The notes below the pieces were generated by a model, which saw only the letters and a list, made by a program, of their open reading frames with translations, had not been told where the DNA came from and searched no databases. The position numbers and the translations under genes were made by a program. This document shows, in pieces, positions 3,913-27,519 of a stretch of 53,708 nt of DNA; within the stretch, counting starts at the first letter, position 1, and the number at the start of each line of letters is the position of its first letter. Origin of the DNA: an uncultured Bacilli bacterium (GTDB lineage: Bacteria > Bacillota_I > Bacilli_A > RFN20 > CAG-449); assembly GCA_947591215.1 (NCBI GenBank), contig CANQCZ010000008.1:1-53708 (forward strand), given 5' to 3'.

Positions 3913-4662
3913 ATGAAAGCATTGATTACAGGAGCATCTTCAGGATTAGGTAGAGATATCGCGCGTTTATTATCTTTGAAAGGTTACGATTTGATATTAG
4001 TAGCTCGAAGAAGAGAACGATTAGAAGAACTAAAACAAGAGTTTCAAACATCGGTTCAAATTTTTGCGATTGATGTCACTGATTTACCTAGTATTTTAAA
4101 GATGTATGAAGAATTAAAAGATCAAAAAATTGATGTTTTAATAAACAATGCCGGATTTGGATTATTCGGATTCTTCAATGAACTTGATTTAATCTCTCAA
4201 GAAGAAATGGTAAAAACGGATGTATTGGCTATGCAAAATCTAATGCGCCTCTTTATTGAAAAATTTGAAAAAGATGGTGGTGGTATTATCTTGAATATCG
4301 CATCGTTTGCGGCTTTTACCGGCGGTCCTTTAATGGCGACTTACTATGCGTGTAAAAGCTATATTTATCGTTTAAGTATTGCTATCAATTACGAATTAAA
4401 ATTGCAAGAAAGTTCCGTAAAAATCAGCGTGATGTGTCCCGGACCGTTAAAAACCGAATTTCAAGAAAAAGCCAATGTGCAATTTTTAACTAAGACTATG
4501 TCGAGTGAAAATGCTGCAAAAATTGCGGTGACAAATATGGGTAAAAAGCTCGTTATTTTTACTAGTCTTAAATTTAAAATCGCACGATTTTTACTTCGCT
4601 TTATTCCAGAAGGATTGGCCCTTAGATTTGCATATTTAATTCAAAGAAAACGAAACGACTGA
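3913..4662 (+). CDS. SDR-family oxidoreductase
   Basis: TGASSGLG, NNAGFG and YxxxK (YYACK) motifs. Annotated ORF begins at 3886; MKALITG at 3913 is the likely start. Confidence 0.88.
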   Translation: MKALITGASSGLGRDIARLLSLKGYDLILVARRRERLEELKQEFQTSVQIFAIDVTDLPSILKMYEELKDQKIDVLINNAGFGLFGFFNELDLISQEEMVKTDVLAMQNLMRLFIEKFEKDGGGIILNIASFAAFTGGPLMATYYACKSYIYRLSIAINYELKLQESSVKISVMCPGPLKTEFQEKANVQFLTKTMSSENAAKIAVTNMGKKLVIFTSLKFKIARFLLRFIPEGLALRFAYLIQRKRND

Positions 4663-4763
4663 CAAATCGATGATTTTTAAAGTTTAAGCACTTTATACGA
4701 ATATAAATAATATTAGCAATTATATGGACTTTAATGTAAAATATAAGTGCTAGGAGATTTGAT

Positions 4764-6104
4764 ATGGAAGTCAAATTATATAATAGTCTTACTAATCAAA
4801 TAGAAGTATTTAAACCGATTCGCAAAAACGAAGTTACTTGCTATGTTTGTGGGCCGACAGTCTACAATTATGTGCATTTTGGAAATATGCGTCCGGTGGT
4901 TGTTTTTGATGTGCTTAGAAGATTATTTACGTACTTAGGGTATAAAGTTACCTTTATTTCAAATTTTACCGATATTGATGATAAAATTATTGCCGAGGCT
5001 AAAAAAGAGGGACTTTCTGAAAAAGAGATTGCCGATAAATATATCGAAGCATTTGAAGAAGATCGAATCGCCATTCATTCTTTAAAACCAACTTATCAAC
5101 CGCGTGTCGTAGAAACTATGGATAAAATCATCTCATTTATCGATAAAATGGTTAAAAATGATTATGCCTATGTCGTTGATGGCGATGTTTATTTCCGCGT
5201 TACCAAAATCGATGATTACGGATCTTTGAGCAATATGAAAAAGGAAGATCTTATTGCCGGAGCCCGCATCGAAGAAAATAGTAAAAAAGAATCACCACTA
5301 GATTTCGCATTGTGGAAGAAAACGAGCGAAGGAATTCAATTTGATTCTCCTTGGTCTAAAGGTCGCCCCGGATGGCATAGCGAATGCGTAGTGATGATTA
5401 ATTCTATAATACCGGGTGGACATATCGATATTCACGGCGGTGGATTTGATTTAAAATTTCCACATCACGAAAACGAAATTGCTCAATCGATTGCCGTGAA
5501 TGGGCATAAAATCGCGAACGTTTGGATGCATAATGGATTTATCAATATCGACAATGTAAAGATGTCAAAATCTTTAGGAAATGTTAAACAAGCCAAACAG
5601 ATGCTCAATCTTTACGGCGGTAATGTTGTTCGGTTTATTATTTTAAATACCCATTATCGCACACCGTTGAATTTCACTGATGAATTGGCCACAAATGCTG
5701 GCAAAGAACTAGAAAAAATTCAACAATGTTATAATAAATTGGCAATTTCTTTGCAACTTGCAAACAAAAATTTAGAGGGAAAAGTCAATAAAGAAAGTAT
5801 TCATACTTTTATTGAAAGTTTAGCTGACGATTTGAATACCCCTAACGCGATTACCGAACTCTATCGAATGATAAAAGAAGGAAATATAGAATTGCGTAGC
5901 AAAGAAAAAAATTACGACAAAATCAACGAACTTTTCAACACTATAAAAGTAATGTTCGATTTGTTGGGATTAGAATTTGTCCCGACAATATTGGATGATC
6001 AAGCACGAGAATTATTCAAATTGTATGAAAAGGCTCGCTCTGATAAAGATTTTCAAAAGAGCGATGAATATCGCAAAGCCTTGATGGAAAGAGGATTGAT
6101 GTAG
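4764..6104 (+). CDS. cysS: Cysteinyl-tRNA synthetase
   Basis: CYVCGPTVYNYVHFGNMRP, GWHSEC, HIDIHGGGFDLKFPHHENEIAQS, KMSKSLGN. Confidence 0.97.
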   Translation: MEVKLYNSLTNQIEVFKPIRKNEVTCYVCGPTVYNYVHFGNMRPVVVFDVLRRLFTYLGYKVTFISNFTDIDDKIIAEAKKEGLSEKEIADKYIEAFEEDRIAIHSLKPTYQPRVVETMDKIISFIDKMVKNDYAYVVDGDVYFRVTKIDDYGSLSNMKKEDLIAGARIEENSKKESPLDFALWKKTSEGIQFDSPWSKGRPGWHSECVVMINSIIPGGHIDIHGGGFDLKFPHHENEIAQSIAVNGHKIANVWMHNGFINIDNVKMSKSLGNVKQAKQMLNLYGGNVVRFIILNTHYRTPLNFTDELATNAGKELEKIQQCYNKLAISLQLANKNLEGKVNKESIHTFIESLADDLNTPNAITELYRMIKEGNIELRSKEKNYDKINELFNTIKVMFDLLGLEFVPTILDDQARELFKLYEKARSDKDFQKSDEYRKALMERGLM

Positions 6105-6105
6105 T

Positions 6106-6816
6106 ATGGATCGGGCAATATTAAATTTTTTTGAATCATTAGGTGATGTAGGTACCTTGTTGTTGATTTTTTTGGAAATTACACTAGCGGCTCTCTTTTC
6201 CGGTTTTATCGGTTATGAAAGACAATATCACGGACATGCGGCAGGACTTCGCACTCACATCTTAGTTTCAATCGGTGCCTGCTTGATTATGATTATTTCG
6301 ATAATGGCTCCGGGTTTTGACGGAAATACTACTAGAGATCCGGCACGACTTGCGGCACAAGTTGTATCTGGTATCGGTTTTTTAGGCGCCGGCACGATAA
6401 TTCAAACAGGAACCGACATCAAAGGATTAACGACAGCAGCAACGATATGGTTGGTTGGTGGCATCGGTTTAGCGTGTGGCTCTGGTTTCTTTTCAGGCGC
6501 AATTATTACGACGATTGTTTCGATTTTGACCTTAATATTCTTAACAAAAATCGAAAATATTTTGAGCAAACATTTTCCTAAAATTATTTTAACGGTTTCA
6601 GGAGATAAGCCGATTTTAAAAGAGACTTTGGTATTTGCAAATAAATATGGAATTATTATTAAAAATGTCGGATCTACTATCATCAAAGGACAACTGGGAG
6701 ATTTATTGAGAATTACAATTACGATGGCTGAGATTGACAAATCAACATTACAGGCCTTTGCTGATGATATTAGAATCAGTATCGCTCCTCACGAAATTAA
6801 AGTAATCAGTAAATAG
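6106..6816 (+). CDS. MgtC/SapB family membrane protein
   Basis: SGFIGYERQYHGHAAGLRTHILVSIGA...DPARLAAQVVSGIGFLGAGTI signature. Confidence 0.92.
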   Translation: MDRAILNFFESLGDVGTLLLIFLEITLAALFSGFIGYERQYHGHAAGLRTHILVSIGACLIMIISIMAPGFDGNTTRDPARLAAQVVSGIGFLGAGTIIQTGTDIKGLTTAATIWLVGGIGLACGSGFFSGAIITTIVSILTLIFLTKIENILSKHFPKIILTVSGDKPILKETLVFANKYGIIIKNVGSTIIKGQLGDLLRITITMAEIDKSTLQAFADDIRISIAPHEIKVISK

Positions 6817-6822
6817 TTAAAA

Positions 6823-6858
6823 AAATCGGCTTAAATTTTGCTAAGACCGATTTTTTTC
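6823..6858 (+). terminator. Intrinsic terminator after the mgtC-like gene
   Basis: AAAAATCGGCTTA-aattttgc-TAAGACCGATTTTTTT. Confidence 0.75.
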
Positions 6859-6884
6859 TTTATTATATAAGTAGAGGTATATTT

Positions 6885-7613
6885 ATGAAACAATACATTT
6901 ATGGTAAAAATACTGTCCTTAGTTACTTAAAAGATAATACCTCTAGTGAAGTGTTTCTTTTAAAAGGTTTTAAAGATCAAAAAATTATGAGCTTTCTTGA
7001 AAAAAACAACATCGATTTTCGTTATGCTTCGGAAAGCGAATTAGAAAAATTGGTTGGCGATGTGAATCATCAAGGTATCGTGGTTCTTCGCAAAGATTAT
7101 AGTTATTATTCGTTAGAAGAACTTCTCAATTGGTCAAAAGATCAAGATAATCCGACGATTGCCATTCTTGATGGAATTGAAGATCCTCATAATTTTGGGG
7201 CTATTTTAAGGAGTGCAGATGCTTTAGGAATAAAATGGATTATCATTGGAGAACATCGCCAAGTTCCGTTAAATGGTACTGTCAGTAAGGTTTCAACAGG
7301 AGCGGTCGATCATGTGAAAGTGTGTAAAGTCACCAATTTAAATCAAGCGATTAAAAGCTTAAAAGAGCATAATTATTGGATTGTAGCAAGCGATGGTGGG
7401 GGAAATATCGATTATCGTGATATCGATTATAAGCGAAAAATTGCTATTGTAATTGGTTCTGAAGGACGAGGAATTTCACGTTTAATCCTTCAAAATAGCG
7501 ATTATGTCGCGTATATTCCAATGGTAGGGTCGGTCAATTCACTCAATGCTTCAAATGCTGCGACTTTGTTTTTTGCGATGGCTTTTAATTCAAAGACAGG
7601 TAAAGCAAAATGA
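6885..7613 (+). CDS. rlmB: 23S rRNA (guanosine-2'-O-)-methyltransferase RlmB / TrmH family
   Basis: SpoU motifs LDGIEDPHNFGAILRSADALG, IVIGSEGRGISRL, GSVNSLNASNAATLFFAMAF. Confidence 0.92.
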   Translation: MKQYIYGKNTVLSYLKDNTSSEVFLLKGFKDQKIMSFLEKNNIDFRYASESELEKLVGDVNHQGIVVLRKDYSYYSLEELLNWSKDQDNPTIAILDGIEDPHNFGAILRSADALGIKWIIIGEHRQVPLNGTVSKVSTGAVDHVKVCKVTNLNQAIKSLKEHNYWIVASDGGGNIDYRDIDYKRKIAIVIGSEGRGISRLILQNSDYVAYIPMVGSVNSLNASNAATLFFAMAFNSKTGKAK

Positions 7614-8275: not shown

Positions 8276-9274
8276 ATGAAGAAAAAAAGAAATATCATAA
8301 GTTTGATTTTTATGTTATTGGGATTCGTGGCTTTGATGCTGTGGATTCTTTCTTTGGTACTATCAACTGGAAAATCCTTAAAAGAATTTAATCTTTATTT
8401 GGAGATTGTTTATTACGTTGGCGCAGCAGCTTTAATCCTGTATTTTTTGATAATTCCATTTTTTACAGTCCTTTTTGCTCCGCCTTTTTCTTATCGCTCT
8501 GTCGCTCAAAAACTAGAAGGTACTCAAAAAAAGAAAGTTGTAGATTCACATTACAAAAAAATGAAAAAACTTTCAAAGAGGTTAATTAGAAAAAAACAAA
8601 TTTCCGATGAGAATGCGAACCTTTTAAAAGAATCGATGAAAGGAGCTGAAGGTGAATCTTTAGTTTTAAAAGATCAAAGGTTGCAAGAACAATTAAGTAA
8701 TATTCTTAAAAATGATATAAAGAAAGATATGCGCAAAATTGTAATTGAAAGTGCTAGAGATACGTTGTATTTAACAGCGTTATCTCAAAATAATACCATC
8801 GATATTTTGATTGTGATTGTTAACAATTTTAGAATGCTTAAAAGAATGGTAAAACGAGCGGGATTTCGCCCATCGTTTTTTCGTCTTTTGAAATTTTATC
8901 TTAATGTTGCATTGGCGTCTTTAATCGCTGATGGGGCTGAAAAGCTCGATATCCAAAACATGTTTGGCAATTTGCTTCCAAATCTTGCAAAACCGATTGT
9001 CGGTTCTTTGGTTGAAGGAAGTATCAATGCTTTCTTTATGCTTAGAAGTGGCTTTTTAGCGATGCAATATATTTTTAATAGTTGTGATGACGAAACATCC
9101 AAGAATAATTTGATGAATTCCGCGTTTGCCGAAGCGGCTAAAGCGTTGCCGGAGCTTACTTCAAGTTTAGTGATAACTCCGATTGCAAATGCGATTAAAG
9201 GAACAGTTGTCACCCCCACTAAAAAAGCGTTAAAAAAATTATTTCATAAAGAAGACCCTTTAGAAATTAAGTAA
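8276..9274 (+). CDS. DUF697-like membrane-associated protein
   Basis: Two N-terminal TM segments; NFRMLKRMVKRAGFRPSFFRLLKFYLNVALASLIADGAEKL resembles DUF697 proteins. Confidence 0.6.
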   Translation: MKKKRNIISLIFMLLGFVALMLWILSLVLSTGKSLKEFNLYLEIVYYVGAAALILYFLIIPFFTVLFAPPFSYRSVAQKLEGTQKKKVVDSHYKKMKKLSKRLIRKKQISDENANLLKESMKGAEGESLVLKDQRLQEQLSNILKNDIKKDMRKIVIESARDTLYLTALSQNNTIDILIVIVNNFRMLKRMVKRAGFRPSFFRLLKFYLNVALASLIADGAEKLDIQNMFGNLLPNLAKPIVGSLVEGSINAFFMLRSGFLAMQYIFNSCDDETSKNNLMNSAFAEAAKALPELTSSLVITPIANAIKGTVVTPTKKALKKLFHKEDPLEIK

Positions 9275-9328
9275 GGAAGATAAACAAAAAACCATTAGGT
9301 TTCTTTTTTTCTAGATTTTTGATAAATA

Positions 9329-9946
9329 TTAGATTTTTTGGGATCTTTTTTTCATCCATTCGCAGTCTTTAAAAAATTCTTCAAAACTAATATTTTCTTT
9401 TAAAATTTTACTAGGTACCCCTCCAATTAATACATTTCCGCATTCAAAAGATTTATTAACTAAAGCATTGGCGGCAACAATAGTGTTATTGCCTAAAATT
9501 ACATTTCCTGTTATGGTGCTATTGACAAAAACTAATACATTATCCAATATAATAGGTTTAAAATCATTATTACCACCAGCTACAATTTCTACACTCCTAT
9601 GAACTACAAAATTTTTTCCAATATATTTTGCATTAATCATAATAGGACCGATATGAACCATTTTAAATCCTTCATCAATAGTATTTATAGGAAGAAAAAT
9701 TGAATATTTTAACGAATGTCTATTTAATTTAAATTTATAATATTTACATAATATTTTTTTATTCGTATTTAAGAAGTATTCAGATTTCCGTAGCAAATAA
9801 TTAAAATAAAATAATTCTTTTTTTTCATTAATTCTAAAAATTAAATCTGATATTCGGTATTTTCGCCCAAAATATCTATAACTCTCATAATTTAATATTC
9901 TTTTTAGCTCTTTTTTAGTTTTTATTAATTTTACTTTTTTTTCCAT
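9329..9946 (-). CDS. Left-handed beta-helix (hexapeptide) acyltransferase
   Basis: IGPIMINAKYIGKNFVVHRSVEIVAG...NVILGNNTIVAANALVNKSF..GNVLIGGVPSKILKE hexapeptide repeats. Confidence 0.8.
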   Translation of the reverse strand: MEKKVKLIKTKKELKRILNYESYRYFGRKYRISDLIFRINEKKELFYFNYLLRKSEYFLNTNKKILCKYYKFKLNRHSLKYSIFLPINTIDEGFKMVHIGPIMINAKYIGKNFVVHRSVEIVAGGNNDFKPIILDNVLVFVNSTITGNVILGNNTIVAANALVNKSFECGNVLIGGVPSKILKENISFEEFFKDCEWMKKRSQKI

Positions 9947-10219
9947 ATTTTTTACCCATTTTCTTGCCGCTTATCACATACTAGGGTTCTATAAACAAAC
10001 AAAATTTTTACAATATAAATTATATTACATAATATGAAGATTTTAAACTAAATATTTTTACAATGTGGTTGGTTATTAAATGACAAGTTAAAGTACGCTA
10101 AAAAAGGAATTTATTTCACTAATATGGGTAATAAAAAAATATTTTGTTCTAAATTATTATTCTTGACAATATTGTTTTATCGTCCTATATTTTTTTATGG
10201 AAAAAGGAGATTTACAGAA

Positions 10220-11491
10220 GTGAAAAAATTAAAATTACTTTTATTAGTACCAGCACTTATGTTGTTTGCTTGTGATGGTATGAATCAAACCGAAACATCA
10301 AATGGATCGAACAATCCATCTGATATCTCTGATGTTTCTTCGGCAGAAGAAGCGTCAAGTGCTCAAATGTCGCAACCTGATTCTTATGTAACAGGAAGCG
10401 AAGCCGCGAATTTAAAAAATGAATTCGAAGCAAAACTTCAAGCCGCGATGCCATTAACCGAATGGGCCGGTAGTAAGTTAGAAGGAAGCTTCAATGCTAA
10501 AGGATCTTTTGCATCCTCAGATGAATTAAAATTTGATAATGCAGACCTTTCTTTAAATTTTGAGGTACTTGATAATCTCAACAGAGATGTTTTAAGTTCT
10601 TTACAAGAAACCGGTCTTACCGGTGAAGAAGACTTAGGTAAATTTTCTGCTAAAGCCGATTTGACTATGGCAGTAGATATTACCGAAGTTCAATCGGATT
10701 CAACTGCTGAAGCCGAAGAAGAAAGTTCTTCTGATTCAACACAAACTCAAAAAGTTGTTAAAAGCCATGGAAATGCTGAAATTCATGCCAACGTTAATTA
10801 TGGTCGTCAAGCATTAAAAGTCGAAGGTATGGAAGCAGCAACCGAAAGCGATTGGCTCTTTTTGGGAATTGAAGGAAATATAATCCAAGATTATGAAGAT
10901 GCTTCAATGAAAGATTCAGATGAAGATTTAACTCGTGCCTTGCTTAGCAACGATCTTTTAAAGAGCGTTGTCGACTTAATGTCGTCGAGTGCACCTGAAG
11001 TAATGGCAGTTGCGGCTGAAGATGAGCAACCGAATCAACTTGAGATGATTTTATCGATGCTTGCCGATATGTCCGAATTCGGTAAATTAGGTACCGCTTA
11101 CTATGTTAAACTTGATTTAGCCTCTATTGCTGATTTAGTGATGGAAATGATTAGTAGTGGAAACGTAGCACCGGTTGCAGAAGATCCTACTACTCCGACT
11201 GCTCCAGTTGTCAACGGAGATTTAGTGATTAGATTCGATTTTGAAGAAGAAGGAGCTCTTAAAGATTTGATGGTTGATGCCTCAGATGTAGAAGTTGCTT
11301 ATGGCGAAATGATTGACTTAAATCTTTCTTTAAATGCAAAATATGCCGAAACCGAAGACCAAGTTGAACTTGTTTCTCAAGAAAAAGTCGATGAATTATA
11401 TGCTAAGAATGCTGAGCTTCTTACAACGCCATTTATTTATGTCCCAGGCGAAGAATTGATTCAAATGTTATTCTCAATGCTTCCAATGTAA
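10220..11491 (+). CDS. Putative lipoprotein of unknown function
   Basis: GTG start with RBS aaggag at 10204; VKKLKLLLLVPALMLFACDG lipobox. Annotated ORF starts at 10124 but the signal peptide fits GTG at 10220. Confidence 0.75.
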   Translation: MKKLKLLLLVPALMLFACDGMNQTETSNGSNNPSDISDVSSAEEASSAQMSQPDSYVTGSEAANLKNEFEAKLQAAMPLTEWAGSKLEGSFNAKGSFASSDELKFDNADLSLNFEVLDNLNRDVLSSLQETGLTGEEDLGKFSAKADLTMAVDITEVQSDSTAEAEEESSSDSTQTQKVVKSHGNAEIHANVNYGRQALKVEGMEAATESDWLFLGIEGNIIQDYEDASMKDSDEDLTRALLSNDLLKSVVDLMSSSAPEVMAVAAEDEQPNQLEMILSMLADMSEFGKLGTAYYVKLDLASIADLVMEMISSGNVAPVAEDPTTPTAPVVNGDLVIRFDFEEEGALKDLMVDASDVEVAYGEMIDLNLSLNAKYAETEDQVELVSQEKVDELYAKNAELLTTPFIYVPGEELIQMLFSMLPM

Positions 11492-20463: not shown

Positions 20464-21486
20464 ATGAATGATTTTGTTAAAGCATCACCTTTAAAAAGAA
20501 TCGGAGCCGCTTTTATAGATTTAGGTCTTGCCTATATTGTTAGTTATCTATTGCTTAGTAGTCTTATTATGCCGATTACTTATAGCGCGACACCATATAT
20601 TGAAGACACATACAAAGCTTATGAAAGTTTAGTTGATTTAGGCGTTGCGGTTATCGGACAAAAGGTCGAAACCGATAATGATTATGTAATTACAATATAT
20701 GCTGATTGTGAATCATCTGAGGCAAAACGAACTGAAGCTCTTAATAAAGTAAAAACTGAAAATTCAGAATATAATTATTACTATTTAACTGATGAAAAAT
20801 TACAAATTACTAATGAAGAATTAGATCAGTATTTAACGCATTTTTATAATGAAATCGGAGAATCCGATCAATATTTAAAACAAAAAAACGACAATAATTC
20901 ACTTTTTACAAATGGCGAAATCAATCCTTCGGCTAAAGAAGATGAAGTTAAGTCGTTTTTGACTACAATCGCCTCCTCTTGGATGGAGGAACAAAGTATC
21001 AGTTCATATAAAGACGGAGAAGTAGTACGACAAATAGCTAAAGTAGGTGTCTATGGCTTTGTTACGAATGCAATTGCAATGACGATTTCGCTTATCATTT
21101 TTTACTTTGTAATTCCTTTAATTAGCAAATGGAGAATGACGCTTGGAAAGAGGATGATGGCTTTGACGATTGTTGATGTTAAAACAATGCAAATTGCTTC
21201 AAGGCCACGAGTATTTCTTAGAAGTTTGTTTTTTGTGCTTGTGGGTCTTGTACCATCGTTTTATGTGATGGGATTACCTTTGGTGCTATTTATTATCATT
21301 ATGCTTTTAAGTAATAAAGGACGAACTTTAGAAGATTTTGTGACTTCTACTATGGTGGTTGATATGCAGTATTTTGACTTTTCTAAAAATGCGCAAAACG
21401 TGGATGATCAAGAAACTGACTCTGAAGCTCAAGAACGTGATGTGGTTTCAACGATAGATGACAATGAAGGGACAAGTAATCAGTAA
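20464..21486 (+). CDS. RDD family membrane protein with extracytoplasmic insertion
   Basis: SPLKRIGAAFIDLGLAYIVS...RMTLGKRMMALTIVD...RPRVFLRSLFF RDD layout. Confidence 0.85.
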   Translation: MNDFVKASPLKRIGAAFIDLGLAYIVSYLLLSSLIMPITYSATPYIEDTYKAYESLVDLGVAVIGQKVETDNDYVITIYADCESSEAKRTEALNKVKTENSEYNYYYLTDEKLQITNEELDQYLTHFYNEIGESDQYLKQKNDNNSLFTNGEINPSAKEDEVKSFLTTIASSWMEEQSISSYKDGEVVRQIAKVGVYGFVTNAIAMTISLIIFYFVIPLISKWRMTLGKRMMALTIVDVKTMQIASRPRVFLRSLFFVLVGLVPSFYVMGLPLVLFIIIMLLSNKGRTLEDFVTSTMVVDMQYFDFSKNAQNVDDQETDSEAQERDVVSTIDDNEGTSNQ

Positions 21487-21635
21487 TGCCGATAAAACTA
21501 AAACATATTTTTGCAGGTCTTATAGATTTTAAGGATAATAATCGCTATTTTTATCGTACTATGGATGGAACAACTATTCGTAATTTCATCACAAAAATCA
21601 CTATTGATATACAAATTATAGAGGATAAAACGTAA
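21486..21635 (+). pseudogene. Internally deleted RDD-family paralogue remnant (49 aa ORF)
   Basis: TAATG overlap with the upstream gene; MPIKLKHIFAGLIDF...TMDGTTIRNFITKITIDIQ aligns with both ends of the neighbouring RDD protein (ILRRFISGFIDL ... KNGKTIGKRITKLSLV). Confidence 0.55.
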
Positions 21636-21638
21636 AAT

Positions 21639-22454
21639 ATGAATATTGGAAGACCAACTATCTTAAGACGATTTATCTCGGGCTTTATTGATTTGATACT
21701 TATTCTTTTAATGATGTTCTTAACCGGAAATTTAATCCATTTGCTTATCAATAATAATTCTAGCTCATATGGTGAACTAAAAGAAAAATATCAAGAAGTC
21801 TTAATCGAATCTACATTATATGAAAAAACAGAAGATGGCGTGATTATCATTCAAGATGATTTTGATGAGCATTTAACATATTGCTTTACTTTATATGGTA
21901 AACTTGATGATTATCAAGATCATAAAAACAACAGTGAATATTTTAAAGAAGATGGCACTATCAAAGAAAATGTAGATAGTGAGGAAGTACGTGATTTTTA
22001 TATATCTCAGGTTTTATATGCTAGAACAAATTTATTCGCTACAGATGAAAGATATAATGCCTATATATCTTTTGAAAATAGGACTTCAAATATATCAAAT
22101 CTAATTGGTGGATTTTTATCTTGCTTAGTATTTGAATTAATAATACCATTTATTGGTAAAAACGGAAAGACAATTGGAAAAAGAATCACAAAGTTATCGT
22201 TAGTAAGCGCTAGCGGTTATCAAATGAAAAAATGGCAACTTATACCGCGTTTTATAATTTATTGTATAGCAGTTCTTTTAATTCCTTTTCAAGGAATAGG
22301 TTTATACTTATTTTTAGCTTCATTTTTGCTTATCTTTTTAAATCGGCGTGATATGGCGTTCCATGATTATATTGGATATACTGTCGTTGTTGATTTTACT
22401 TATGATATAATTCCTTATGAGGAACAAGGAGATGATGTGGATGAACAAAATTAG
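21639..22454 (+). CDS. RDD family membrane protein with extracytoplasmic insertion
   Basis: RPTILRRFISGFIDLILILL...GKNGKTIGKRITKLSLVSASG. Confidence 0.8.
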   Translation: MNIGRPTILRRFISGFIDLILILLMMFLTGNLIHLLINNNSSSYGELKEKYQEVLIESTLYEKTEDGVIIIQDDFDEHLTYCFTLYGKLDDYQDHKNNSEYFKEDGTIKENVDSEEVRDFYISQVLYARTNLFATDERYNAYISFENRTSNISNLIGGFLSCLVFELIIPFIGKNGKTIGKRITKLSLVSASGYQMKKWQLIPRFIIYCIAVLLIPFQGIGLYLFLASFLLIFLNRRDMAFHDYIGYTVVVDFTYDIIPYEEQGDDVDEQN

Positions 22455-23247
22455 TACTTCCGGACGTTTAATGCGCCTTTTGTCTGGTTTGCTAGATGTT
22501 CTATTTATCTTTATTGTTATCTTTATAATGACAATTTTTTATACTGAAGTGATTTTGAAGAATGATCAAGCATATCAAAATGCTTACAATACACAGATTA
22601 CTATTTTAAAAGAATCATCCTTGTATGAAGAAAAAAATGGTTCTCTAGTATCGATAGAATCTGATTTTGATAAACATCTTGAAGAATTTTATAAAATATA
22701 CTCCTACGATATGACTAGTGGTTCTATATCTTATCAAGAAGCTAAAGAAAAAAGTGGGTATTTCACTTTTGATGGATCCTTGAAAGATGGATTAGAAGAA
22801 AATGATGATGGAATTAGATCGTTTTTTGCTGATCAATTGGTTTTAGCTTTGAATACTTTAGCAAAAAATCCTACTTATATTGAATGTACTGCAATTACTA
22901 GTAATAAAGTTACTCTTGGATCAGATATTTCTTTGTTTGCTTCGTGTACAATTTTACTTTTAGTAATTCCATTATGCCGAAAAGATAGAAAAACACTTGG
23001 AAAAATCATTACTCATATGTCATTAATATCAAAACATGGAAATGACGTTCATTTTATACAAATTATTGTTCGTTATTTAGTGGAAATGATAGTCTTAGTT
23101 TTCTTTTCAACTATGATACCGGGGATGTTTTTATTGTTGCAAACACTAATTGTATGCTTTACTAAAAAAGGTACTGGTCTAGATGATTTATTAGCGGACA
23201 CTTATGTCTTAACTAATAGTGATAAGGAACTATTACAAGGAGAATAG
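22441..23247 (+). CDS. RDD family membrane protein with extracytoplasmic insertion
   Basis: STSGRLMRLLSGLLDVLFIFIV...DRKTLGKIITHMSLISKHG. Likely start 22441 (annotated 22417), overlapping the upstream stop. Confidence 0.8.
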   Translation: MNKISTSGRLMRLLSGLLDVLFIFIVIFIMTIFYTEVILKNDQAYQNAYNTQITILKESSLYEEKNGSLVSIESDFDKHLEEFYKIYSYDMTSGSISYQEAKEKSGYFTFDGSLKDGLEENDDGIRSFFADQLVLALNTLAKNPTYIECTAITSNKVTLGSDISLFASCTILLLVIPLCRKDRKTLGKIITHMSLISKHGNDVHFIQIIVRYLVEMIVLVFFSTMIPGMFLLLQTLIVCFTKKGTGLDDLLADTYVLTNSDKELLQGE

Positions 23248-23388: not shown

Positions 23389-23724
23389 ATGTTTGAAGCA
23401 AAATACAAAGAAATTTATATTGACGATATTTGCAAAAAAGCAATTGATGCTTTTTTTGATTATTTTATTATTTCGCATAAACTAATTGAAGAGAAGATTG
23501 CAAATAAAGATAGAAGTTTTATGAAAGAATTCGATTTGGAAATTAAGAAAGTTTTTCCTAGATATCAAAAATTGTTACGATATAATTTCATATATAAAGA
23601 TGATATAATTGAATTCATATTTTATTATGGAAGGAACGACTACCTATTATCGGTCGCTACATTTTTATGCGAAAGAAAGCAAAATTTCAATTTAAAAAAA
23701 TGGAGATTTCGGTTGGAAAAATAG
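23389..23724 (+). CDS. Hypothetical protein
   Basis: ORF only. Confidence 0.45.
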   Translation: MFEAKYKEIYIDDICKKAIDAFFDYFIISHKLIEEKIANKDRSFMKEFDLEIKKVFPRYQKLLRYNFIYKDDIIEFIFYYGRNDYLLSVATFLCERKQNFNLKKWRFRLEK

Positions 23725-23847
23725 CAAATTTGAAATGGTAAAAAGCTGAACTTATATAAATCCATAAATTGACTAGTTTATGGCAAAATGTTATAATATT
23801 TTCAATATTGTTAATACAATAATAAGCTATGGAATGAAGAGTGAGAT

Positions 23848-24534
23848 ATGGATATTAAAAAGGATATAATTGGTATTGTCGGTGGCATGGGATCATATGC
23901 AACACTGAATATTTTTAAAAGAATTTTAGATTCTTTTGAAGCTGAAAAAGAATGGGATAGGCCGAGAATAATAATCGATAATAACTGTACATTACCATCA
24001 AGATCGAGAGCACTTCTTTATCATGAAAAATATGAAGAAGTTGTAAATGGACTGATGGAAAGCATCTCGTTATTGATGAAAGCGGGAGCAAATATTATTA
24101 TTTTAGGTAGTAATACCGGACATTTATTTTTGGATGAAATACTTAAAAGACTACCAGAAGCTAAAAAATATTTGGTTGATTTTATTAAATTATTATCTCA
24201 AGATATAAAAAAAGAAAATATCAAGCGAGTATTGCTTTTGGGTACGGAAGCAACTTTAGACTTTAATATCTATAAAGAATGTTTACAAAATGTCGAAATT
24301 GTTGTTCCTAATGATGAAATGGTAAAAAGAATAAATTATTTCATTGAAATAGTTAAACAAAACAGAATTAATCAAAGAGATATTAGTAATTTTAAAAAAT
24401 TGTTGTTAAATTTCGACGAAAAAAATATTATTTTCGGATGTACTGAATTGCCCGTTCTTTATGAGTTAATTAAAGAAAAAATTGATAAAAATATTTATGA
24501 TCCGATTAATTCATTTATCAAATTTTTAAAATAA
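23848..24534 (+). CDS. Aspartate/glutamate racemase-like protein (first catalytic Cys position is Ser)
   Basis: IGIVGGMGSYAT, LGSNTGHLFLDEI (usually CNTxH), FGCTELPVL (second Cys retained). Confidence 0.82.
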   Translation: MDIKKDIIGIVGGMGSYATLNIFKRILDSFEAEKEWDRPRIIIDNNCTLPSRSRALLYHEKYEEVVNGLMESISLLMKAGANIIILGSNTGHLFLDEILKRLPEAKKYLVDFIKLLSQDIKKENIKRVLLLGTEATLDFNIYKECLQNVEIVVPNDEMVKRINYFIEIVKQNRINQRDISNFKKLLLNFDEKNIIFGCTELPVLYELIKEKIDKNIYDPINSFIKFLK

Positions 24535-24545
24535 GGAGGTAAGTT

Positions 24546-24941
24546 TTGAAAGTTTTAACATTTGGAGTTTTTGATTATTTACATTATGGACATTTAAAAT
24601 TATTTGAAAGAGCATCTAAATACGGCGATTATTTAATAGTGGCTGTTCAAAAAGATGAAGAAATTCACAAAACCAAACCCGATGCTCATATGCTTTATAA
24701 TTTAATGCAAAGAATGGAATTTGTAGGAGCGATTAAATATGTAGATGAAGTGGTTCCTTATACTCAAGTTGATGAAGATATCAAATTAATTGACTTTGAT
24801 GTTTTTGTACTTGGTGGTGATCAAAATCACGCTGGATTCCAACGAGCAATTAAATGGGCAGAGGAACATAACAAAAAAGTGGTTAGACTTGAAAGAACAC
24901 AAGGTATTTCTTCTTCAATGATTAAAAAGGATAGGAATTGA
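24546..24941 (+). CDS. TagD-like glycerol-3-phosphate cytidylyltransferase family protein
   Basis: TTG start after AAGGAGG; VLTFGVFDYLHYGHLKLFERASKYGDYLIVAV (HxGH) and RTQGISSSMIKK. Confidence 0.87.
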   Translation: MKVLTFGVFDYLHYGHLKLFERASKYGDYLIVAVQKDEEIHKTKPDAHMLYNLMQRMEFVGAIKYVDEVVPYTQVDEDIKLIDFDVFVLGGDQNHAGFQRAIKWAEEHNKKVVRLERTQGISSSMIKKDRN

Positions 24942-24942
24942 T

Positions 24943-25917
24943 ATGTATTTGCATTTTTTAGATGAAGCAAACAAGTTTGAAAATGCATCTTATTGGATAG
25001 ATGCTCTTGTCAATTTATTAATTTCATTTATTCCGGCGATTGTTACTGCTTTATTAACAGCTTGGGTTCTAAATAGTGCATTTAAGAAAAGTAGGCAATT
25101 AGGAGAGGGCCTTGTTAAAGTAGGAATAGAGAAGATTGAATACTCTAGTGGCAAGATGACCAAAAAAGATCGAAACAAATTATTCGGATTAAATGGAAAA
25201 GAAAAGCCAAAAGAATTGTCCTTATGTTTTTTAACAGGAGATAATTTCTTTTTAGATTACTATGATTATATTTTGGATTTGTTAAATAATAATTGTAAAA
25301 TAAAACTTTTAATAGCGAGCCCTTTTGATTCATGTGGAAGTGAAAACTATCGTGTGAAATACCCGAAAAATTTCTCAAGAGAAAAATCATTATGTAGTGC
25401 AGAGGATAAAAAAGCATTAGCTCAAAAATATTATGAATATAATTCCTATAATGAACAACAACTTTTAAAATTAGCATATTTAGAAAGAACATTTTTAATG
25501 GTTTCTCAAGAAATACTCGAAAAAATTGCCGAAAATAAATATGGTAGAGAGTACGCGGTTTTAGAAGAAAGCGAAAAGATTAATGTTTGGTTAGATAGAA
25601 TAGGAAAAACAGGCGATCATGTAATGCAAGCTATGATTGTAACACAAATTGTGGAATCGCTAAATAAGGAATCAAAAGGAAGCAAAATTGAATTATTTTA
25701 TTATAAGGATGAATATAGGATTCCAATTACAATAGCTACATATAGAAAAGACGATCGAGAAGAATATTTATTATGGACTAATATAAATGCTCCAGTTAAA
25801 GAGACCACAAAATCAGTTAATGTTTTTGGCAAGTCTAATGATGGTAAAGATGCAACATATATCACAGATGTATTGAAATCATTTAATTATTTATATAAAA
25901 AATATTCAACAAAATAA
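24943..25917 (+). CDS. N-terminally membrane-anchored hypothetical protein
   Basis: One-nt gap after the TagD-like gene; TM ALVNLLISFIPAIVTALLTAWVL, then a soluble domain (LSLCFLTGDNFFLDYYDYILDLLNNNCKIKLLIASPFD). Confidence 0.65.
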   Translation: MYLHFLDEANKFENASYWIDALVNLLISFIPAIVTALLTAWVLNSAFKKSRQLGEGLVKVGIEKIEYSSGKMTKKDRNKLFGLNGKEKPKELSLCFLTGDNFFLDYYDYILDLLNNNCKIKLLIASPFDSCGSENYRVKYPKNFSREKSLCSAEDKKALAQKYYEYNSYNEQQLLKLAYLERTFLMVSQEILEKIAENKYGREYAVLEESEKINVWLDRIGKTGDHVMQAMIVTQIVESLNKESKGSKIELFYYKDEYRIPITIATYRKDDREEYLLWTNINAPVKETTKSVNVFGKSNDGKDATYITDVLKSFNYLYKKYSTK

Positions 25918-25935
25918 AAATTTTTAAACCATTTC

Positions 25936-26392
25936 TTATATAAAAATTGATTTGAGAGAACATCCAATTAAAAGTCTAAAGATTTCCGCTTTAGAATCAT
26001 TGTGAAAAAAATCATTAATATATTCTTTATATGAAAGGTCTCTTAAGCAAAATTCTTTTGTCTTTGTGTATTCTTTTTATAGGTGACATATTTTCTTAAT
26101 TCATGAGCTTTTACTTACTAAATCAATGTGAGAGCAATCTTTTTCCTAAATCCTTCTTCAATAACTTGATGAGAATGAATTTTCTGTATATAGATGATTA
26201 TTTCTAAAAAATCTATTTGCTATCTCAATTAAAGATATGATTTTTGATAAACAAGCTTGAAGTAACATCTTTTTACGGATACTTAAGGCTTTATTGTTTC
26301 AATTAAAAAGGTAAAACACATTGTCTAATTGTCAAATATTTGTATCCGTTGCAATAACTTTGCTGCTTAACAGTAGGCGTTTTGAAAAACAT
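25936..26392 (-). pseudogene. Eroded coding remnant, family not recognised
   Basis: Minus-strand reading gives successive open segments in shifting frames: MFFKTPTVKQQSYCNGYKYLTIRQCVLPF* / NNKALSIRKKMLLQACLSKIISLIEIANRFFRNNHLYTENS / HSHQVIEEGFRKKIALTLI**VKAHELRKYVTYKKNT / KEYTKTKEFCLRDLSYKEYINDFFHNDSKAEIFRLLIGCSLKSIFI*. Confidence 0.4.
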
Positions 26393-26457: not shown

Positions 26458-27519
26458 ATGGAAGTTAAACTTGTCAATCTTACTAAATGTTTTAGTAAGA
26501 AAGAGGGTAACGTTGTCGCGGTTGATCATTTAAACATCACGATTCCTTCCGGCAAACTTGTAGGATTATTAGGCCCTTCAGGATGCGGAAAATCAACAAC
26601 TCTTTACATGATTGCCGGTCTTCATCGTCCAACGGAAGGGGAAATTTATTTTGAAAATAATGAAGTAAGTAAATTTCCACCTGAAAAAAGAGGTATTGGT
26701 CTAGTTTTCCAAAACTATGCTTTGTACCCACATCTTACGGTTCAACAAAATATCATGTTTCCGTTAGAGAACATGAAGGTTGAAAAGAAAGAGGCACTTA
26801 GACGTGCACAAGAAATGGCAAACTTAGTCGGTATCGGTGATTTGATGGCACGGACACCAGGACAATTATCTGGCGGACAACAACAGCGTGTTGCAATCGC
26901 CCGTGCGCTTGTTAAGATGCCGGAAGTTCTTCTTTTAGATGAACCACTTTCTAACTTGGATGCAAGATTACGTTTGCAAACTAGAGAAGAAATTAAGAGA
27001 ATTCAAAAAGAGACGGGTATTACAACTATTTTCGTTACCCACGACCAAGAAGAAGCGATGTCGATTTCTGATGAAATCGTTGTTATGAATTTCGGTGTTG
27101 TGCAACAAATTGGTAAACCTCAAGATGTTTATAATGAACCGGCGAATATGTTTGTCGCTAAGTTCCTGGGAACGCCACCTATTAATATTATTCCCGCCAT
27201 TGTTCAAGATGGAAAGATTATGATGTATAATGCTGAATTTAAAGAAAAACATAATTTAGATTTATCTTCTATTGACGGATTAAATATTGGTGTTAGACCA
27301 GAATATATTAAAGTTGATCCGAAAGGGAAATATAAAGTTTATGTTGAAATGGTCGAATACATCGGCCGTGATAAGACTTTAATATTTAAATTTGATGGAC
27401 AAGAAAATACTTGCAAAGCGATTATTCCAAGTGAAGTTGATGTTCTACCGGGTAGTGAAATCAACATTGACTTTAAACGTTATTTCATCTTTGATAAAGA
27501 AGGGACAAGACTTTTATAA
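26458..27519 (+). CDS. ABC transporter ATP-binding protein (UgpC/MsmK/MalK-like)
   Basis: GPSGCGKST, LSGGQQQRVAIARAL, LLDEPLSNLDARLR, VFVTHDQEEAMSISDE-type motifs. Confidence 0.96.
   Translation: MEVKLVNLTKCFSKKEGNVVAVDHLNITIPSGKLVGLLGPSGCGKSTTLYMIAGLHRPTEGEIYFENNEVSKFPPEKRGIGLVFQNYALYPHLTVQQNIMFPLENMKVEKKEALRRAQEMANLVGIGDLMARTPGQLSGGQQQRVAIARALVKMPEVLLLDEPLSNLDARLRLQTREEIKRIQKETGITTIFVTHDQEEAMSISDEIVVMNFGVVQQIGKPQDVYNEPANMFVAKFLGTPPINIIPAIVQDGKIMMYNAEFKEKHNLDLSSIDGLNIGVRPEYIKVDPKGKYKVYVEMVEYIGRDKTLIFKFDGQENTCKAIIPSEVDVLPGSEINIDFKRYFIFDKEGTRLL

Follow-up and report, generated by a model that had tools for sequence, protein, structure and literature searches.

A racemase homologue, a TagD-like cytidylyltransferase and a membrane-anchored protein of an unclassified family encoded by an inserted three-gene operon in an uncultured Bacilli bacterium

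The stretch of DNA analyzed in this study (the window) covers 53,708 nucleotides of contig CANQCZ010000008.1 from an uncultured Bacilli bacterium (CAG-449; assembly GCA_947591215.1). It carries three consecutive genes, ORF1 to ORF3, whose products are a homologue of amino-acid racemases, a TagD/ECT-like cytidylyltransferase (CTase) and a membrane-anchored protein, respectively. The genes and the promoter-like site preceding them are as follows.

23769..23797, + strand: sigma-70-like promoter candidate of the extended -10 type, TTGACT-17-TATAAT with TG, 11 of 12 consensus positions matched (consensus match only)
23848..24534, + strand: ORF1, racemase homologue of 228 aa with Ser88/Cys198; PF01177, E = 1.8e-15; TIGR00035, 115.3 bits against a cut-off of 93.1; phmmer matches to 2DX7 and 1JFL
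24546..24941, + strand: ORF2, TagD/ECT-like CTase of 131 aa with HYGH and RTQGISSS intact; PF01467, E = 3.1e-20; phmmer matches to 1COZ (E = 2e-20) and 3ELB (E = 1.1e-19); TIGR01518, 81.3 bits, below 165.4
24943..25917, + strand: ORF3, membrane-anchored protein of 324 aa from an unclassified family (alignment A4); no match in Pfam, NCBIfam, PADLOC, PHROGs or PDB sequences; AlphaFold pLDDT 83.0

The three-gene operon put forward in the original prediction is real: all three ORFs lie on the same strand at these coordinates, with gaps of 11 nt between ORF1 and ORF2 and 1 nt between ORF2 and ORF3. ORF2 starts at a TTG codon with AAGGAGG upstream. The promoter-like site, the top one of the region, is located approximately 50 nt upstream of the ORF1 start; promoter-like matches overall were no commoner than chance (17 found against 19.1 expected).

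Comparison with congeners demonstrated that the trio resides on an accessory insertion, since three of them (G001, G002 and G003) carry the empty site, in which RDD-like genes and a 111-aa gene are followed directly by a sugar-ABC ATPase gene. The segment and its borders are given below.

23389..23724, + strand: left neighbour, an intact 111-aa gene of the genus, outside the insertion; matched at the empty site by genes of 111, 113 and 129 aa in the three congeners
about 23736..26374, no strand: inserted accessory segment of ~2.6 kb carrying the trio; flanking genes adjacent without it in the three congeners
26299..26373, no strand: right edge of the insertion (75 nt), probably the end of a transposable element; several dispersed copies in genome G017 share 79% identity with it, and the match ends where congener homology restarts
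26458..27519, + strand: right neighbour, the sugar-ABC ATPase gene, outside the insertion, at the same position in the three congeners

Homology to G001 ends at position 23735 and restarts at 26375, with flanks matching at 95–97% and ~50 nt in place of 23736–26374; the left edge is placed only within a few tens of nucleotides, as the intergenic DNA diverges. An accessory island had been proposed earlier on the grounds that the gene at 23389–23724 was eroded. The island was borne out by the empty sites, whereas the argument for it was wrong: this gene is intact and ancestral rather than eroded, because it is conserved in the same place in the congeners. At the insertion edges, neither clear terminal inverted repeats nor a target-site duplication was found, and the read-through frames in 25918–26373, inspected for a transposase, gave no Pfam match. 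In G017 (L066, L071 and L074), the ~76-nt repeat similar to 26299–26373 occurs in several copies, some of them at contig ends, a pattern typical of transposable-element ends; it probably terminates an uncharacterised mobile element. Farther upstream in the window, positions 20464–23247 hold three consecutive divergent genes for RDD-like membrane proteins, with counterparts in the congeners and in the wider family. The trio is best read as a horizontally acquired, mobile accessory module.

ORF1 scored above the cut-off of TIGR00035, the model of the Asp/Glu-family amino-acid racemases, and shares with these enzymes the second catalytic cysteine (Cys198, within GCTELP). In contrast to this two-cysteine family, it reads SNTGH (Ser88) where 1JFL has CNTAH, so that the Cys-to-Ser change noticed earlier was confirmed; it also fell below the cut-off of the cysteate racemase CuyB model (NF052483; 127.8 bits against 190). 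Judged by analogy, the substitution is not unusual, because active relatives lacking the first cysteine exist, in which this residue is inessential for activity: EcL-DER, which has Thr83/Cys197, is active without it and specific for L-substrates (PMC12661438), and RacX has Ala79 at that position (PMC12838360). Serine at this site, in turn, distinguishes ORF1 from both.

The assignment of ORF2 as a TagD-like cytidylyltransferase was confirmed. Both nucleotide-binding signatures, HxGH and RTxGISS, are present as HYGH at residue 13 and RTQGISSS at residue 117, and the protein passed the nucleotidylyltransferase superfamily models TIGR00125 (64.5 bits against 27.7) and PF01467 (73.2 against 21). 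It thus belongs to the fold family of TagD and ECT, carries both signatures and resembles 1COZ and 3ELB over its full length. It differs from TagD in failing the TagD equivalog TIGR01518, in having GGDQNHAGF in place of the TagD segment GDDWEGKFD, and in the absence of adjacent TagB/TagF genes. The putative CTase is therefore close to 1COZ and 3ELB yet far below the TagD cut-off. Elsewhere in the same genome, contig C17 (L036, 3096–7220) carries an apparent phosphonate-type gene set, as judged from sequence, comprising a CTase joined to a phosphoenolpyruvate-mutase-like domain, together with a gene resembling phosphonopyruvate decarboxylase and an NTP-transferase/dehydrogenase fusion. This second CTase domain suggests that the organism may make other CMP- or CDP-activated headgroups.

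For ORF3, described as an unknown in the original prediction, HMM and structure searches with the product of 24943–25917 placed it outside any known housekeeping family; in addition to the lack of significant matches in the libraries listed above, a PDB profile search with the whole family retrieved nothing significant. A search of 1974 genome slots (many genomes repeated with different queries), together with a single pass over the GTDB contig collection, assembled a family of 12 distinct Bacillota loci (the window, L010, L007 (=L011), L012, L003 (=L013), L014, L020, L021, L048, L049, L047 and L035), two of which are disrupted (L047) or decayed (L035). No member or relative was found in phages, plasmids or IMG/VR. 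Matches in G173 and G236 lay inside a UDP-galactopyranose-mutase-like gene and were treated as false positives, and a short match in G440 was left uncounted, as the stretch fetched contained no ORF3-type gene. The long members are 33–69% identical among themselves, L020 is 23–27% identical to them, and the shorter members (L021, L048, L049 and L047) are 15–25% identical. ORF3 is 69% identical between L007/L011 (Erysipelotrichaceae) and L012 (Clostridia), and 59% between the window and L010 (Clostridia); both values point to transfer of the gene between distant Bacillota. In L047 (6528–7916), the ORF3-like gene is broken by a frame change, and its C-terminal part runs into a second domain of ~200 aa that has no Pfam match.

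The membrane anchor ascribed to the third gene was recovered by both hydropathy and modelling as a single, strongly hydrophobic helix at the N-terminus, with a soluble domain after it:

24985..25080, + strand: N-terminal transmembrane helix of ORF3, aa 15–46 (hydropathy; helix 15–46 in the model)
25126..25908, + strand: predicted soluble domain of ORF3, aa 62–322, phospholipase D (PLD)-like and devoid of the HKD histidine (AlphaFold model, Foldseek, conservation)

A first model, built from three sequences, had a pLDDT of 55 and was superseded by the AlphaFold model from 11 sequences (pTM 0.76), in which the helix precedes a compact mixed alpha/beta domain. Foldseek searches against the PDB gave no E-value below 0.1; the weak matches that recurred were proteins of the PLD superfamily, namely TrmB, phospholipase D, phosphatidylserine synthase and FAM83 with the first model, and MITD1 (top), TrmB, PPK1 and F13 with the second. 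The L021 relative likewise gave a weak Pfam match to TrmB (E = 0.014). Transfer by known PLD-superfamily enzymes proceeds via the histidine of the HKD motif. No histidine is conserved across the 11 ORF3 members, and HKD chemistry is therefore absent from ORF3. Seven polar residues (Asp256, Glu257, Tyr258, Asn280, Asn282, Glu287 and Thr288) are invariant in all six long members, several of which are lost in the short ones; the segment WTNxNAP may, by eye, take the position of GSxN in PLD enzymes. The closest likeness is to the C-terminal domain of MITD1 and the sugar-binding domain of TrmB, which recurred as best fold matches with the two models and also lack a catalytic histidine. ORF3 differs from both in its N-terminal transmembrane helix, in having neither an MIT nor a helix-turn-helix domain, and in an insertion between strands, and the likeness comes with no significant E-value or sequence match. 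The PLD fold of MITD1 binds membranes, according to the title of Hadders et al. (2012), cited in PMC9477494. On the model, a binding or docking role fits ORF3 better than catalysis.

The neighbourhoods of ORF3 were compared across the 12 loci. L010 begins at a contig end, and its first 38 nt encode GISSSLIKETKK-stop, the stop overlapping the ATG of ORF3 by one base; this is the counterpart of the CTase C-terminus in the window, GISSSMIKKDRN-stop. The CTase–ORF3 pair is thus conserved, as L010 starts with a CTase C-terminus that overlaps the ORF3 start. The contig bearing the rest of this CTase was not found in the 0.8 Mb sampled of the 1.5-Mb genome. Conservation of the whole trio, which had been set as a check on the operon, was therefore obtained in part: this junction is kept in a genome of another class, whereas the complete racemase–CTase–ORF3 arrangement was found at none of the other ORF3 loci in the Bacillota genomes sampled, the L010 contig reaching no farther than the CTase C-terminus, and racemases near ORF3 relatives were confined to weak matches in other contexts. 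Literature on racemases combined with cytidylyltransferases and on PLD-like immune effectors yielded nothing on a gene pair of the ORF1/ORF2 type.

At L007, ORF3 is preceded by genes for a CMP-sugar-type CTP_transf_3 protein, an HMGL-type aldolase and a HAD phosphatase, and directly followed (4657–6926) by Shedu SduA (PADLOC, E = 3.9e-110) and then a PD-T4-1/HNH gene. L021 lies in a polysaccharide cluster, with genes for a polysaccharide pyruvyl transferase, an aminotransferase, a CTase–Gfo/Idh fusion and a metallo-beta-lactamase-like protein upstream, and a DRT UG5-nitrilase reverse transcriptase (8370–11273; PADLOC, E = 1.3e-165) ~300 nt downstream of the ORF3 relative; a similar arrangement of aminotransferase and CTase is found among three LicD genes in a glycan cluster of Ruminococcus albus. 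L012 places ORF3 within a glycan cluster, L020 beside a cluster of dTDP-rhamnose-type and flippase genes, and the decayed copy at L035 lies in an exopolysaccharide cluster that includes a transposase, the latter two being judged from sequence. Taken as a raw count with no background rate, CTP-activating or glycan genes accompany ORF3 at seven of the 12 loci (the window, L010, L007, L021, L012, L020 and L035). A cupin gene stands 1–3 nt upstream of ORF3 at two loci (L003 and L014), away from glycan clusters, the two ORF3s being 39% identical; defence genes also occur at two (L007 and L021), both among the seven. The relative at L048 has no cupin, glycan or CTP-activating partner, and the short relative at L049 (1316–8224) adjoins a filamentous-phage-type set (a replication-type protein, a Zot-like ATPase and a large surface protein), recognised by sequence features with weak PHROGs matches.

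Because the commonest theme among these neighbours is the use of CTP or another nucleotide to activate a small headgroup or a sugar, we favour, tentatively and at a likelihood somewhat short of even, the reading of the trio as an accessory module for surface decoration, in which a phospho-headgroup is activated with CTP and ORF3 is a membrane-docked, non-catalytic docking or sensing partner. In the scheme we infer, the racemase homologue would fix the configuration of a small substrate that probably derives from an amino acid, and the cytidylyltransferase would use CTP to turn a phosphorylated small molecule into a CDP-headgroup. As a single-pass protein whose PLD-like domain is probably cytosolic and non-catalytic, ORF3 may then dock or sense the activated donor or a lipid-linked acceptor at the membrane, and the headgroup would be transferred by a LicD- or TagF-like phosphotransferase encoded elsewhere. 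For surface glycans such as the Type A glycan of C. difficile, amino acids activated as CDP derivatives have been described or proposed (PMC10714395). That system and the phosphoglutamine CTase modules of Campylobacter resemble the trio in having a CTase, whose proposed function there is to activate a phosphorylated amino acid that is then transferred to a surface glycan (PMC10714395); in C. difficile, however, CD0242 is a different type of nucleotidyltransferase with the TagF-like CD0244 beside it, whereas the trio has a racemase and ORF3 instead. The CDP-headgroup suggested in the original prediction is the best-supported idea, given the recurrence of CTP-activating and glycan genes beside ORF3 relatives. 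The surface-decoration reading is also favoured by the tight spacing of the operon, the CTase–ORF3 junction kept in L010, the aminotransferase–CTase set among LicD genes in R. albus and the membrane binding reported for the PLD fold of MITD1. The insertion, with its three genes only, nevertheless encodes neither a CDP-headgroup transferase nor a kinase, and has no glycan gene. The absence of a transferase is what weakens the surface-decoration reading most; the full trio having been found in no other genome, the cupin partners at L003 and L014, the partnerless L048, the two defence loci and the weak fold matches also count against it.

The main rival, which we consider somewhat doubtful, holds that ORF3 is an independent accessory protein that shares hypervariable islands with genes for glycans and for defence; a metabolic role of their own would then fall to the racemase and CTase, and the operon would be uninformative on ORF3. 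Its partners do differ at nearly every locus, its short relatives stand alone (L048) or beside the phage-type set (L049), and unrelated genes accumulate in variable islands. Against such independence stand the tight CTase–ORF3 junction in genomes of different classes (a 1-nt gap in the window, a 1-base overlap in L010) and the 1–3-nt spacing from the cupin gene at two loci whose ORF3s have diverged so far.

A role in signalling or defence, also raised earlier, is unlikely: here the enzymes would produce or guard a small molecule activated with a nucleotide, to which ORF3 would respond as membrane receptor or effector, for instance on phage infection. The neighbourhoods lend this idea its support, through Shedu and PD-T4-1/HNH downstream of ORF3 in L007 and the DRT UG5-nitrilase in L021, as do the patchy, mobile distribution with an insertion edge and the resemblance of a swappable upstream enzyme plus a constant membrane protein to an effector arrangement. 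Against it, neither the trio enzymes nor any ORF3 member gave a PADLOC match above noise, defence genes are confined to two of the 12 loci, and the trio has no nucleic-acid or phage sensor, nor ORF3 a known effector domain. The drt1b membrane-protein gene found beside about 18% of drt1 genes (PMC13275509) resembles L021 in placing a transmembrane protein gene next to an RT-nitrilase; L021, however, has a UG5-class reverse transcriptase, a 300-nt gap and no PADLOC match to Drt1b, and no reverse transcriptase lies near the trio. More unlikely still is the specific version of a conflict or signalling module in which an interchangeable nucleotide-activating enzyme (TagD-like CTase or CMP-sugar synthetase) or a cupin supplies or controls a signal that is read by an HKD-less, PLD-fold membrane receptor; if true, a nucleotide-activated headgroup would be an immune or stress signal. 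Least probable of all is that ORF3 itself transfers the headgroup from a CDP-donor to a membrane acceptor by an unusual non-HKD active site, since the family has no conserved histidine and its short members have lost several of the polar residues, although ORF3 is the sole membrane protein encoded with the CTase, the seven polar residues are invariant in the long members, and the first model matched phosphatidylserine synthase, a PLD-fold transferase.

ORF3 represents a family of mobile membrane proteins, rare and without a match in the libraries used, that draws on a short list of swappable metabolic partners. Should it bind headgroups activated as CDP or CMP derivatives, it would serve bacterial glycan donors as a receptor or adaptor with a non-catalytic PLD fold; two small genes, those of the conserved CTase–ORF3 pair, suffice for a direct test of this idea.
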